Shown here one piece after another: positions 14,610 through 40,188 of a DNA stretch of 64,000 nt. The stretch spans positions 96,896-160,895 of the forward strand of contig JANXCH010000001.1 of NCBI GenBank assembly GCA_025060295.1, written 5' to 3'. The translations under genes and the position numbers were made by a program. Source of the DNA: Dehalococcoidia bacterium. GTDB taxonomy: Bacteria; Chloroflexota; Dehalococcoidia; Lucifugimonadales; HRBIN23. Under the pieces are notes generated by a model. It had not been told where the DNA came from, did no database searches, and worked only from the letters and a program-made list of their open reading frames with translations. Numbering within the stretch: position 1 is the stretch's first letter; the number at the start of each line of letters is the position of its first letter.

Positions 14610-14635
14610 TGCCCCAAACAACTGAAGAGCGCCCT

Positions 14636-14733
14636 GCCGAGGGGGAGCCTGGTAGAGCCAGGCTGAGAGGGCGGCCCGTAATGCCGCCGACCCCACGAAC
14701 CTGATCTGGGTAATGCCAGCGGAGGGAACCGGC
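14636..14733 (+). ncRNA. TPP (thiamin pyrophosphate) riboswitch aptamer
   Basis: All hallmarks of the THI element are present: the P2 arm GGGGGAGCC with CAGGCTGAGAGG, and a P3 hairpin of GGCGGC with GCCGCC. The highly conserved CCTGATCTGGGTAATGCCAG and CGGAGGGAA follow. A P1 of GCCG with CGGC closes it. It heads the thiZXY-tenA-thiD genes, so rising TPP should switch off import and salvage of the pyrimidine moiety. An intrinsic terminator follows 23 nt later, giving a transcription-termination expression platform. Confidence 0.95.
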
Positions 14734-14756
14734 TCGGATGAGGGGCTATTCCCATG

Positions 14757-20011: not shown

Positions 20012-20034
20012 GGTTCTACATCCACTACATAGAC

Positions 20035-20200
20035 CTGGTCAGGTGCCCCGCACGGGGAGAATAGGGAAGTGCGGTGCGAATCCGCCGCGGTGGCGCCACT
20101 GTGAGCGGGGTTTCCCCGGCTGATGGCCACTGTTGCCGAGGCAATGGGAAGGCCTCAGCACATCTCCTTGCCCCGCAAGCCAGGAGACCTGCCTGACCAG
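20035..20200 (+). ncRNA. Cobalamin (B12) riboswitch aptamer
   Basis: A 9-bp P1 of CTGGTCAGG (20035-20043) with CCTGACCAG (20192-20200) closes the element. The conserved core GGGAAGTGCGGTGCGAATCC, then GGCGCCACTGTGA, is present. The B12 box AGCCAGGAGACCTGCC is at 20178-20193. It precedes btuCFD, so adenosylcobalamin or a related corrinoid should repress uptake. No U-tract terminator follows; the leader ends in a hairpin over the ribosome binding site. Confidence 0.95.
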
Positions 20201-20266
20201 AAAAGGTAACCAACCTTCGCTCCAAAGGGGGTTGCCTATGGGTGCTGTTTCGAGTGGTCAGGGGCC

Positions 20267-35490: not shown

Positions 35491-37035
35491 CTACCCCGCT
35501 GGGCTGGGCGCGGTGAAACCCTCCATAGCCAGGAGGCGATTGAGGGCGTTGGCATAGGCGCGGGCGCTGGCCACCAGGATATCGGTGGACGCACCCCTCC
35601 CTGTGTACACACGCCCATTGTGTTCCACGCGGACCGTTACATCGCCCATGGCATCTAGGCCCTCCGTGATGGAGCGGACGCTATATTCCACCAGTTTGGG
35701 CTTGAGGCCCACCACCTGGGCGATGGCGTTGCACACCGCGTCCACGGGGCCGTTGCCGGTGGAGGTCTGCACCCGCACCGTGCCATCGGGGCCGGTCATG
35801 CGCACCGTGGCGGTAGGCACATCGGCGGTGCCGGTGTGCACCTGCACATGATCCAGGGAGAAGGCGACCGTTTCCCCCACCCGCCGATGCTCCGCCATCA
35901 GAGCCTCCAAGTCCCGATCGGTTACCTCGGGTTTGCGGTCGGCCAGGGCCTTGAAGTCCTGGAACACCTTGTTCAGCTCCTCCGGCGTGAGTTTGAAGCC
36001 CAGGGCCTCCAGGCGCGCCTTGAGGCCGGCCCGTCCACTGAGTTTGCCCAGGACGATCTGGCTGGCCTGGGGCCAACCAATGTCGGCGGGATCCATAATC
36101 TCGTAGGTCTGGCGCTCCTTGAGCACTCCGTCCTGGTGGATCCCCGAGGCGTGGCGGAAGGCGTTCAGGCCCACGATGGCCTTGTTGGGCTGAATGGGGA
36201 AGCCAGTGACCTCACTCACCAGCCTGCTGGTCGGATAAATCTCCCGCGTGTTGATGCCTGTGGTTACCCCGAAGTAGTCCTTGCGGGTGTGCAAGGCCAT
36301 GATGATCTCCTCCAGGGAGGCGTTGCCCGCCCGCTCGCCGATGCCGTTGATGCACCCCTCCACCTGGCGCGCCCCGGCCTTGATGGCCGCCAAGGAGTTA
36401 GCCACGGCCAGGCCCAGGTCGTTATGGCAGTGGACACTCACCACCGCCTTATGAATGTTGGGCACGCGCTCAAAGACGCTGCGCACCAGTGCGGCGAACT
36501 CGGCTGGGATAGCATAGCCCACAGTGTCGGGGATGTTCACGGTGGTCGCCCCGGCCTCTATGACGGCTTCAAAAAGGGCATAGAGGAATTCGGGCTTGGT
36601 GCGGGTGGCGTCCTGGGCGGAGAACTGCACATCCGAGCAGTACTTCTTTGCCCGCCTTACAGCCTCCACCGCCATCTGCATGACCTCTTCCCTGTCCTTG
36701 CGCAGCATGTGGAGCATGTGAATGTCCGAAGTGGACAGGAACACGTGAATGCGGGGGTGGGCGGCCTCTTTCAACGCCTCCCATGCTTGGTCCACATCCT
36801 GGGGGTGGGCGCGGGCTAAAGAGGCGATGATGGGCCTGCGCACCTCTCGGGCAATGGTCTGTACTGCCCTAAAGTCGCCCGGGGAACTGGCGGCGAAGCC
36901 CGCCTCGATCACATCCACTCCCAGACGGTCCAACTGTTTGGCGATCTCCACCTTCTCCTCAACGGTCATGCCAGCCCCGGCAGCCTGCTCGCCGTCGCGC
37001 AAGGTCGTGTCAAAGATGATGACGCGGTCTACCAT
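35491..37035 (-). CDS. leuA: 2-isopropylmalate synthase
   Basis: LeuA condenses acetyl-CoA with 2-oxoisovalerate, the first committed step of leucine synthesis. The 514-residue length matches the long, leucine-regulated form. The catalytic TIM barrel has [35 protein letters not shown] and [19 protein letters not shown]. The subdomains include [18 protein letters not shown]. The C-terminal allosteric domain (about 390-510) ends with [20 protein letters not shown]. Citramalate synthase is a possible alternative within the family, but the DG-x-G and GERAGN context favours LeuA. ATG 37035 has AGGAGGAG. It has a 225-nt leader and its own terminator. No other leu genes are in the window. Confidence 0.92.
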
Positions 37036-37133
37036 GTCTCTCCTCCTGATGTGTGGTGAAGGTCTTGCACAGGGTATGCCTCGTCCGACGCACGGGAGAA
37101 GGCAAAACCCAAAAAGGGGAAAGTAAGGGGAGA

Positions 37134-37152
37134 GGACGGCCTACGGCCGCCC
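37134..37152 (-). other. Stable hairpin in the leuA leader
   Basis: On the minus strand GGGCGGCC and GGCCGTCC form an 8-bp stem with a 3-nt loop, 5 nt after the stop of the leader ORF. A pyrimidine-rich stretch with TTTTT about 20 nt later follows. Upstream GCCGCC could pair with its 5' arm, giving an alternative fold. Confidence 0.45.
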
Positions 37153-37157
37153 GAGGG

Positions 37158-37259
37158 CTAGAGGAGAATAGCGCAGTGCGCCCAGGGAAGCCCTGCCATG
37201 ACCCCCCTGTGGCGGCGAACTGCGCTGGGGACCTCCTGGTGGATGCTATGAACAGCCAT
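37158..37259 (-). CDS. Possible leuA leader peptide ending Ile-Leu-Leu
   Basis: An ORF of 33 codons starts within a few nt of the predicted transcription start and ends ATT CTC CTC TAG. An internal ATG at 37199, preceded by AGGGGGG, would give a 13-residue peptide, MAGLPWAHCAILL. Ile and Leu codons just before the stop, then a strong hairpin, are what an attenuator leader needs. A further 8-bp pairing (AGCGCAGT with ACTGCGCT) brackets the second half of the ORF. Only three or four Leu codons occur, fewer than in classic leu leaders, so this is a hypothesis. Confidence 0.4.
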   Translation of the reverse strand: MAVHSIHQEVPSAVRRHRGVMAGLPWAHCAILL

Positions 37260-37267
37260 CGCTAACT

Positions 37268-37296
37268 ACACTACCATCAACACCGGCATCTGTCAA
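37268..37296 (-). promoter_or_regulatory. leuA promoter
   Basis: On the minus strand TTGACA, a 17-nt spacer and TAGTGT with an extended TGG lie 233 nt upstream of the leuA ATG. The long transcribed leader is unusual for this compact window. Confidence 0.7.
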
Positions 37297-38573: not shown

Positions 38574-39059
38574 TTACAAGCGCACGACACGGATGGTGAA
38601 ACGGTTGCTGGGCACAAAGGAACAGACATACTGGTGGACGCCGGGGTTCTGGAAACGATAGGTGAGGGTCTGCCCCGGCGGCACTTTGAAGGGGCCAACC
38701 CAGTGGGCCACCACATCCTCGTTCCGGAGGACAAGGGTGTCCCGGTAACCGAGCACCAGGGTCAACTCCTCAGGGAACTCCACGTAGACGGGGAAGTCTT
38801 CGGTGCGGCGCAGGCGCTCGGCTGTGCCCCTCGGCACCACGATGCGCACCTCGCGCCCCACCTGTTCCAAGGGGATGGTGATGCGGTCGTCGGTGGGTCG
38901 GGGGATAGGAGGGGGAGCCGTCCGCTCCAACAAGATGAACACTACCCCCTGCAGCACCAGTGGCAACACCAGAAAGAACCCTATCCCCACCGCCAGGGGG
39001 AGCCAGCGGCGCCGGGACCTCCTCTGAGCTTCGGGCGCGCCAACGACAACCTGCTCCAT
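38574..39059 (-). CDS. Membrane-anchored cupredoxin-like protein
   Basis: One TM segment (residues 22-42) anchors a domain of about 115 residues. Its C-terminal half has the cupredoxin pattern: TLVLRNEDVVAHWVGPFKVP, PGQTLTYRFQNPGVHQYVCS. The candidate copper ligands are the His in VAHWVG, the Cys in YVCS and the His in GVHQY. The usual downstream His or Met of type-1 sites (C-x2-H-x4-M) is absent, since the end reads FVPSNRFTIRVVRL. ATG 39059 follows GGGGGG. It is 19 nt after the PCuAC gene in a copper cluster. Copper binding is plausible but unproven. Confidence 0.65.
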   Translation of the reverse strand: MEQVVVGAPEAQRRSRRRWLPLAVGIGFFLVLPLVLQGVVFILLERTAPPPIPRPTDDRITIPLEQVGREVRIVVPRGTAERLRRTEDFPVYVEFPEELTLVLGYRDTLVLRNEDVVAHWVGPFKVPPGQTLTYRFQNPGVHQYVCSFVPSNRFTIRVVRL

Positions 39060-39078
39060 AGCCCCCCTCTGCCCGTGC

Positions 39079-39537
39079 CTACTGGGCACGCACTTCTACC
39101 GCCACATGCAGGGTGCCTGCCTTCTCAAACTTCAAGTCCAGGTGGAACTGATCGCCAGGCTTTAATTCCTTTTTGAGGTTCAGGAGCATGATGTGCTTGC
39201 CCCCGGGCTTCAGTTCCAGGGTCCCCCCGGCGGGCACCTCAAAGCGATGAGCGGCGTGCATGCGCGCTATCCCACCCTCCATCATGGTCTCGTGTAGTTC
39301 CACCTTGCCTGCAGTTTCTGGGGCCTCCGCACCTATGAGCGCGTCGGGGGCGGTGCCCGTGTTGCGGATGACCATGTAGGCCGCCCCTGCTCCCGCCATC
39401 GCAGGCGATGGGCGTGCCCACGCCCCTTCAATGACTATGGTTGTTGGTTTAGGAGTGGGTGTAGGAGCAGCCGCCCGGCACGCCCCTAGCACCACAAGGA
39501 GGCCCAACACTGCCAGCACAAGAAGACCATTGCGCAC
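39079..39537 (-). CDS. PCu(A)C-type periplasmic copper chaperone lipoprotein
   Basis: PCuAC proteins carry Cu(I) to the CuA site of cytochrome c oxidase. The 152-residue protein has a lipoprotein signal ending in LGAC (C20) and a short TPTPKP tether. The domain has the metal motif H-x-x-M...M...H-x-M: VELHETMMEGGIARM, then HRFEVPAGG, then GGKHIMLLNLKKELKPGD. The start is GTG 39537 behind AAAGGGGGG. The SCO1 gene ends 2 nt upstream, and the cupredoxin gene follows. The pairing with SCO1 is a well-known oxidase assembly unit. Confidence 0.88.
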   Translation of the reverse strand: MRNGLLVLAVLGLLVVLGACRAAAPTPTPKPTTIVIEGAWARPSPAMAGAGAAYMVIRNTGTAPDALIGAEAPETAGKVELHETMMEGGIARMHAAHRFEVPAGGTLELKPGGKHIMLLNLKKELKPGDQFHLDLKFEKAGTLHVAVEVRAQ

Positions 39538-39538
39538 A

Positions 39539-40168
39539 CTACCCCCCTTTGAGCAAGTGACGGATGTCCTGGACGACATAGCGTATCTCGTCCCCTTGCA
39601 TCCCGAAGAACGGGGGAAAAGCGAGGCGCAAGCGCCCCGCGGGGTCTATCACGAACACAAAGGCGGTATGGGCCACTGTATAGCCCCCCGCCGAGCCGAT
39701 GTCTTCTTTGTAATAGCGGACGCCATAGGCGTTGGCCACCAAAGCTACCTGCTCGGGTGTTCCCGTCAGGCCGATGTAGCGGGGGTCAAACCCTTTGACA
39801 TAGGTGCGGAGCCGCTCGGGGGTGTCCCGCTCCGGGTCGACCGACACAAACACGAACTGCACTCGCTGGGCGTCGCCGCCCAGACGCTCTAATACCTGAC
39901 GGACGGCGACCAAGGTTGCAGGGCACACATCGGGGCAGTGGGTGTAGCCGAAGAACACGAGCACTACTTTGTTACGGAAGTTTGCCAGGTGGAAGGGGTT
40001 GCCCTCGGTATCCGTCAGGGCCAGGTCGGGGGCAAGGTGTGGGGGGGTAAAAGTAGCACCGTAAAAGGTATAGGGCGGGGAGGCGCGCACCTGTAGGGCC
40101 AGGGCCGTTCCGATTGCCCCCAACACCACGATGGCTGTCCCCACCAGGACGAAGATGCGGGAGCGCAT
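39539..40168 (-). CDS. SCO1/SenC-family thioredoxin-fold copper protein
   Basis: SCO proteins reduce and load the CuA site of cytochrome c oxidase. The 209-residue protein has one N-terminal TM anchor (residues 4-25). The thioredoxin-like domain has the copper motif CxxxCP in FFGYTHCPDVCPATLVA and the distal His in VAHTAFVFVIDP. FVFVSVDPERDTPERLRTYV is a family hallmark. ATG 40168 has GAGGGGGG. It is the first gene of the cluster. No oxidase subunit lies in the window, so the client enzyme must be encoded elsewhere. Confidence 0.92.
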   Translation of the reverse strand: MRSRIFVLVGTAIVVLGAIGTALALQVRASPPYTFYGATFTPPHLAPDLALTDTEGNPFHLANFRNKVVLVFFGYTHCPDVCPATLVAVRQVLERLGGDAQRVQFVFVSVDPERDTPERLRTYVKGFDPRYIGLTGTPEQVALVANAYGVRYYKEDIGSAGGYTVAHTAFVFVIDPAGRLRLAFPPFFGMQGDEIRYVVQDIRHLLKGG

Positions 40169-40188
40169 CGTTACCCCCCTCACAAACT

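Follow-up and report, generated by a model that had tools for sequence, protein, structure and literature searches.

The window, a 64,000-nt stretch of a Dehalococcoidia genome, carries on its reverse strand a leuA gene behind a sulfide-dehydrogenase-like gene and under its own promoter, and between promoter and gene lies a 225-nt leader whose features are collected in Table 1. The first-pass annotation, made from the letters of this DNA, had placed a promoter of the form TTGACA-N17-TAGTGT here, and both boxes are indeed present with the 17-nt spacer. TTGACA and the spacer length recur in the sister species G001 even though the spacer itself has diverged, and a sigma-70 consensus scan of the window leader missed the promoter because its -10 box is weak. 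Since that box stands 8 nt before the ATG of a short leader ORF, the ORF is probably leaderless; the near-leaderless ATG is shared with G001, where the homologous ORF reads MAMLSSHREVPSAVRRRRGVMAGLPWAHCATLC followed by a stop. The oxidoreductase gene standing before leuA has, on its own upstream side, a group of adjoining genes for an SCO1/SenC protein, a PCu(A)C copper chaperone and a small membrane-anchored protein (window 38574-40183, reverse strand).

Table 1. Features of leuA and its leader in the window (positions within the 64,000-nt stretch; A3, R1 and R2 are the alignment and covariance models used).
Feature	Position	Strand	Basis or remark
leuA, 2-isopropylmalate synthase, presumed regulated gene	35491..37035	-	NCBIfam TIGR00973 match, E 1e-226; Pfam PF00682 and PF08502
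Segment C, GGAGGAGA, leuA Shine-Dalgarno region, candidate partner of segment B	37039..37046	-	complementarity to B
GC hairpin after the stop, genus-specific, GGGCGGCC-GUA-GGCCGUCC	37134..37152	-	arms 37152-37145/37141-37134; paired in G001
Conserved 89-nt RNA element, whole covariance model	37158..37246	-	R1 71 bits, E 4.5e-18 in own genome; R2 69 bits
Leader ORF, 33 codons plus stop, MAVHSIHQEVPSAVRRHRGVMAGLPWAHCAILL	37158..37259	-	same frame open in 46/46 genera; start ATG at 37259
Segment B, UCUCCUCU, ORF end, candidate anti-Shine-Dalgarno	37160..37167	-	8-bp match to 37046-37039; native-specific complementarity, 56 genera
Invariant Leu codon, CTC in the window, CTT/CTG in most relatives	37164..37166	-	Leu in 46/46 genera
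Helix 1, 3' arm	37171..37181	-	columns 66-76 of A3
Helix 2 (inner), 3' arm	37186..37191	-	columns 56-61 of A3
Apical loop, consensus CCUGGCAGG, codes Leu/Met-Ala-Gly	37192..37200	-	U49, G51 and C52 each >=90% conserved
Helix 2 (inner), 5' arm	37201..37206	-	columns 41-46 of A3
Helix 1, 5' arm	37215..37225	-	columns 22-32 of A3
GGAGG element near the ORF start	37232..37236	-	GAG codon in 41/46 genera, never GAA
-10 box TAGTGT, weak (TAACCT in G001)	37268..37273	-	8 nt before the ORF ATG
-35 box TTGACA, leuA leader promoter	37291..37296	-	sequence; recurs in sister species G001

Comparison of the leuA upstream regions of 59 relatives revealed a recurring element in which a short ORF has GGAGG close to its beginning and which further comprises a long hairpin and a terminal sequence like GUUGUCCUU. 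The covariance model R1, built from 25 sequences (alignment A1) with the window copy among the training sequences, detects the element in 110 of the 247 genomes of the window's order, one copy per genome, and 53 of the 97 sampled genera of that order (Dehalococcoidia, SAR202-type) have it. Of the matches examined further, every one of the 97 with readable downstream DNA is followed by leuA on the same strand, 47-246 nt away, and G050, with two leuA genes, has two copies of the element, one before each. The matches L088 and L093 stop at contig ends, the weak match L157 is without leuA, and families f19 and f28 apparently lack the element apart from one weak match in f28. No copy was confirmed outside the order among 294 genomes of the class and 201 of the phylum, where weak matches had no leuA nearby; the matches in G249, G306, G321, G382, G401, G493 and G652 lie in or near other genes, without leuA, and were set aside as chance. 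A 49-nt pattern run over about 85,000 species returned 44 loci, a lower bound as the pattern is narrow, and all are titled Chloroflexota/Chloroflexi, Dehalococcoidia or SAR202. The usual site in relatives is between ilvC and leuA, the C-terminus of IlvC being encoded just upstream of the element for at least 33 of the 56 genera. The window's genome has its ilvC about 90 kb off on the same contig, and the element still stands before leuA, so that, judged by gene order, the element follows leuA out of the ilv operon.

The 33-codon ORF of the first-pass annotation proved to be part of this conserved unit. Its frame is open through the element in all 46 genera compared, the two alternative frames being interrupted in 38 and 11 of them, and an ATG, GTG or TTG start is present in the 48 genera inspected for it, its commonest place being four codons ahead of the GAG codon. 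The shorter, 13-codon form that had been offered from the ATG at 37199 finds little parallel, with an ATG at that place in only 6 of the 46. Of the 48 genera, 31 have a Shine-Dalgarno-like site before the ORF; in some of the others TATAAT stands immediately upstream and the ORF is probably leaderless, like those of the window and G001. Where the element varies in length it does so in multiples of three, with the sole exception of L009, in which the hairpin and the end of the element are kept and the frame is shifted. The conserved frame and start and the multiple-of-three indels together suggest that the leader ORF is translated. Its peptide has no match in Pfam or NCBIfam. An open frame, a start codon and the frequent Shine-Dalgarno-like site would also be expected of a small functional protein with no regulatory role that happens to lie upstream of leuA, a proposal we regard as extremely improbable given the strict cis-linkage to leuA, which holds for both copies in G050, and given the covarying hairpin and the complementarity to the leuA start region described below.

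The last 15-17 nt or so of the element, which we call segment B, include a Leu codon at a fixed position in all 46 genera (CTT in 24, CTG in 21 and CTC in 1), and four genera keep this Leu although the C in front of it, part of the CCU core of B, has been lost. The stop codon is variable in position, 0-24 codons beyond the invariant Leu. The terminal Ile-Leu-Leu to which attention had been drawn is thus present in the window as ATT CTC CTC TAG, but a single Leu codon is all that is conserved, the G001 ORF ending in Ala-Thr-Leu-Cys. Likewise, the proposal to look for conserved terminal Leu codons among relatives yields one such codon in 46 of 46 genera but no run of them: Leu makes up 11.7% of the residues of the ORF, which is no enrichment. 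The invariance of this codon is in part tied to RNA pairing, and not fully independent of it, because in this frame the CCU core of B to some extent imposes CUN, and hence Leu.

Selection on the amino acids themselves was unsupported among the 46 genera, where entropies are flat across codon positions and the mean BLOSUM score is higher in a wrong frame than in the true one, so that RNA constraint can account for most of the conservation of the peptide. This bears on the suggestion that leucine or some other signal makes the nascent peptide, with the consensus V-[RH]-x..V-L-A-x-L..D-[CY]-V-x-L, itself halt the ribosome at the peptide's end. Residues at a distance from that end (V-L-A, D, C/Y) do recur, and Leu-47 (encoded by CTG, TTG or CTA) and Ala-50 (by any of the four GCN codons) vary synonymously, as peptide arrest would have it; however, the entropies and BLOSUM scores leave no amino-acid selection beyond what the RNA imposes, the divergent families f5 and f7 retain little of the peptide, and we think arrest of this kind improbable.

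The RNA constraint is most evident in the hairpin. An 8-bp complementary pair bracketing the ORF had been noted earlier and is exact (AGCGCAGT/ACTGCGCT, 37226-37219/37177-37170), but it is merely the outer part of a longer conserved hairpin that lies inside the ORF. In A3, a gap-free alignment of 46 genus representatives, 96.2% of the cells of this hairpin form standard pairs (96.4% in helix 1 and 95.7% in helix 2), and slid-partner controls are paired in only 29-43%. Two-sided changes occur in 12 of its 17 pairs, 8 of 11 in helix 1 and 4 of 6 in helix 2, and affect 83 cells as against 22 in shuffles, with none of 500 shuffles reaching 83; the covariation across relatives for which the annotation had recommended a search is therefore found. 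In the window the whole 225-nt leader folds with a z of -2.5 relative to shuffles and the ORF hairpin alone with a z of -2.7. At several hairpin positions G-U predominates, a pair that would count as a mismatch in palindromic DNA, and because such pairs are many we argue that the conserved hairpin acts as RNA.

The apical loop holds three positions, U49, G51 and C52, that are both conserved and unpaired in A3. Together with a hairpin better conserved than the peptide, third codon positions no more variable than the others, and a leader in L009 that keeps hairpin and B without the frame, they would suit a sensor made of structured RNA, in which the hairpin or its loop binds a protein or a small molecule, such as a metabolite of the leucine pathway, and gates B and the leuA start, translation of the ORF being merely coupled or permissive. 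We consider such a sensor unlikely, in that practically every genus retains the frame, the start and the final Leu, size differences are almost all multiples of three, the loop conservation would also fit Leu-Ala codons (the third base of the GCN varies), and no Rfam aptamer matches the element.

The first-pass annotation had interpreted the leader as a candidate attenuator, with a ribosome stalled at Leu codons choosing the downstream fold and a GC hairpin after the stop as terminator. That hairpin begins 5 nt past the stop, as described, and stays paired in G001, where a C-G pair has become U-A by compensatory change, which is what classical transcription attenuation by choice between antiterminator and terminator before leuA would have in its favor. 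It is not general across genera, though: outside the window's genus it turns up in just a few unrelated cases, and no U-tract follows it. Terminator-like structures between ORF and leuA were found in 0 of 56 genera and a scan of the window leader gave none; many leaders have about 52-65 nt from element to leuA ATG, and the spacer between ORF and leuA shows no recurrent structure across the 56 genera. With no intrinsic terminator in any of the 56, transcription attenuation was rejected, and we give it very little credence. What does hold from the earlier interpretation is a regulatory leader before leuA, one that is leuA-specific and has an apparently translated ORF with a conserved Leu codon and conserved internal pairing.

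A different partner for the end of the ORF emerges from the leuA start region. Across 56 genera, B is more complementary to the start region of its own leuA than to those of GC-matched other genomes, and a positional scan places the excess in windows from about -42 to +17 of the leuA AUG, with none further off. For the span -42..+18 the excess has a z of 6.4 (0 of 3000 GC-matched permutations) and of 5.2 without the five best genera, exact values that are optimistic in that the span was picked after the scan; the control region +30..+90 of leuA gives -0.5. Against the Shine-Dalgarno region alone (-24..-1) the z is 3.4, or 2.1 without the top five genera. We base these statistics on GC-matched permutations and the positional scan, as a permutation without GC matching is confounded by base composition and by imperfect assignment of leuA starts, and the first 34 nt of leuA, a control, also scored in it. 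In the window, UCUCCUCU (37167-37160) faces GGAGGAGA (37046-37039) over 8 bp, and striking matches occur in L009 (GCGUUGUCCUU/AAGGACAACGC), L004 (CCUCCUUU/AAAGGAGG), L074 (GUUCUCCUU/AAGGAGAAC) and L077 (UUGUCCUUGG/CCAAGGACAA); several genera have just 4-6 bp. The GGAGG at 37232-37236 (reverse strand), inside the leader ORF, is conserved at the nucleotide level and is not the ORF's own Shine-Dalgarno site. As a candidate antisequestor pairing with B it was rejected, its complementarity not being native-specific (z +0.6).

With a modelled ribosome on the final Leu codon the leuA start region became slightly more open, its mean unpaired probability rising by 0.058 (up in 25 and down in 8 of the 56 genera), and modelled stalls on two earlier codons that are often Leu did not open this region. 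In the window itself the modelled stall had no effect, the value being 0.40 before and after.

We suggest, with confidence a little better than even, that the element acts in cis as a leader of leuA and governs the initiation of leuA translation, B covering the ribosome-binding site of leuA as long as no ribosome is stalled on the Leu codon. Initiation is most likely the level of control, given that the ORF end has its conserved partner in the ribosome-binding region of leuA. Comparison of the genomes supplies the two parts that such a device would need, namely a short ORF that has a covarying hairpin within its coding part and, at a fixed place, a single Leu codon as its end, and a segment B that contains this codon and is complementary to the ribosome-binding region of its own genome's leuA. 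With ample leucine, the ribosome would pass the Leu codon and leave, the hairpin would re-form, B would pair with the leuA start, and LeuA would stay low. When charged tRNA-Leu is scarce, the ribosome would wait at the Leu codon over B, leaving the leuA start open so that LeuA could be made. As the element lies between ilvC and leuA in most relatives, translational control of this sort could tune leuA alone. That leucine is the signal we infer from the regulated gene, the invariant Leu codon and the CUC T-boxes of relatives. A more ambitious reading, which we put forward tentatively and at somewhat less than even confidence, is that these leaders form a new class confined to SAR202-type Chloroflexota. 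They would be either dual-coded leucine switches, in which ORF and covarying hairpin are combined and the single invariant Leu codon on the anti-ribosome-binding-site segment is the sensor, or leaders whose hairpin loop is the site for a ligand or protein; in many species they would operate under a Leu T-box, so that leuA would be controlled twice.

The closest parallel is the LEU element of Actinobacteria, which lies before leuA and comprises a leader ORF with Leu codons at its end, a proposed pairing of these with the leuA Shine-Dalgarno sequence and no terminator (Seliverstov et al., 2005; PMC1262725). It is further described there as having several Leu codons in a row together with a conserved pseudoknot, in a compact structure closed by the Leu-codon/Shine-Dalgarno stem, and its authors doubted sensing by the leader peptide because mutations of Leu codons in Streptomyces did not behave as attenuation (PMC1262725). 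Set beside that description, the window element is alike in its leader ORF upstream of leuA (97 of 97 matches, with the frame open in 46 of 46 genera), in the complementarity between the Leu-codon segment and the leuA Shine-Dalgarno region, here statistical over 56 genera, and in the lack of a terminator in either. It differs in having one invariant Leu codon rather than a run, in a conserved hairpin that is upstream of the Leu codon and inside the ORF where LEU as described has a downstream pseudoknot, and in a region between ORF and leuA that is unconserved in length (52-246 nt). The run of Leu codons and the downstream pseudoknot of LEU are the reasons why we do not file the window element with it, though the two probably work in a similar way.

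In the enterobacterial leuL/leuABCD attenuator, a leader ORF ahead of leuA has Leu codons that serve as sensor and a terminator follows. The window leader shares with it an ORF before leuA and, as proposed sensor, a Leu codon read by the ribosome, but has neither a run of Leu codons nor a terminator, and control would apparently be exerted at the ribosome-binding site; of the codon placement typical of attenuators there is one Leu codon at a fixed place, with a small mean effect in the stall model and none in the window. Mycobacteria use leaderless short ORFs as translational cis-regulators, to which a probably leaderless ORF in cis before a biosynthetic gene is comparable, in another phylum and with another amino acid; we know of no sequence that they share with the window element.

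In agreement with the first-pass annotation, which recognised neither a T-box nor a known leu riboswitch, the window leader matches neither the T-box covariance model (RF00230) nor any other Rfam family. No family of Rfam 15 matches the element, the scores for mir-1537 and anti-hemB being far below gathering and attributable to chance, and the only other match was a T-box upstream of it in L009. T-boxes are widespread in the order (238 of 247 genomes). Leu T-boxes with the specifier CUC, which are completely different RNAs from the window element, respond to tRNA-Leu charging and stand either 3-5 kb before the element, ahead of ilv-leu operons, or right in front of it (L009 and L244). With specifiers read by eye from the alignment, CUC was found at the specifier position of eight T-boxes of element-bearing relatives, seven of them 3-5 kb upstream and one directly before the element, and also in the L009 T-box. 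Where the CUC T-box lies 3-5 kb upstream of leuA, as in several genomes, it probably heads the ilv operon. The T-boxes directly upstream of the element are at L009:3260-3473 and L244:104-334 (both reverse strand), and leuA in these two genomes appears to carry two stacked leucine controls. The T-boxes of the window's genome have the specifiers UGG and AUC only, which leaves the element as the only recognised candidate control before its leuA. In the same genome an AUC T-box (L247, G000:C11:110305-110556, reverse strand) lies directly upstream of a second LeuA-like gene, which is citramalate-synthase-like.

A full-text literature search found no description of the element, which is apparently undescribed, and none found of leader peptides in SAR202 or of T-boxes in Dehalococcoidia. 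SAR202-type Chloroflexota are one of the largest uncultured bacterial groups, in the deep ocean and in soils, and to our knowledge almost nothing is known of their gene regulation; the element gives them a conserved regulatory leader. If the proposed mechanism is true, translational leucine control by leader ORFs would extend beyond Actinobacteria and would have an independent architecture, and many operons would be under two tiers of control, a Leu T-box and the element. It also makes testable the question of whether a single Leu codon on an anti-Shine-Dalgarno segment can sense the charging of tRNA-Leu.

Two riboswitches of known families lie elsewhere in the window, both on the forward strand and both before genes whose names are judged from their translations. 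A TPP riboswitch (66 bits, 14631-14745) precedes a run of ABC transporter, substrate-binding, thiaminase-like and phosphomethylpyrimidine-kinase-like genes, and a Cobalamin riboswitch (109 bits, 20024-20210) precedes a permease, binding-protein and ATPase set of the cobalamin-uptake type.
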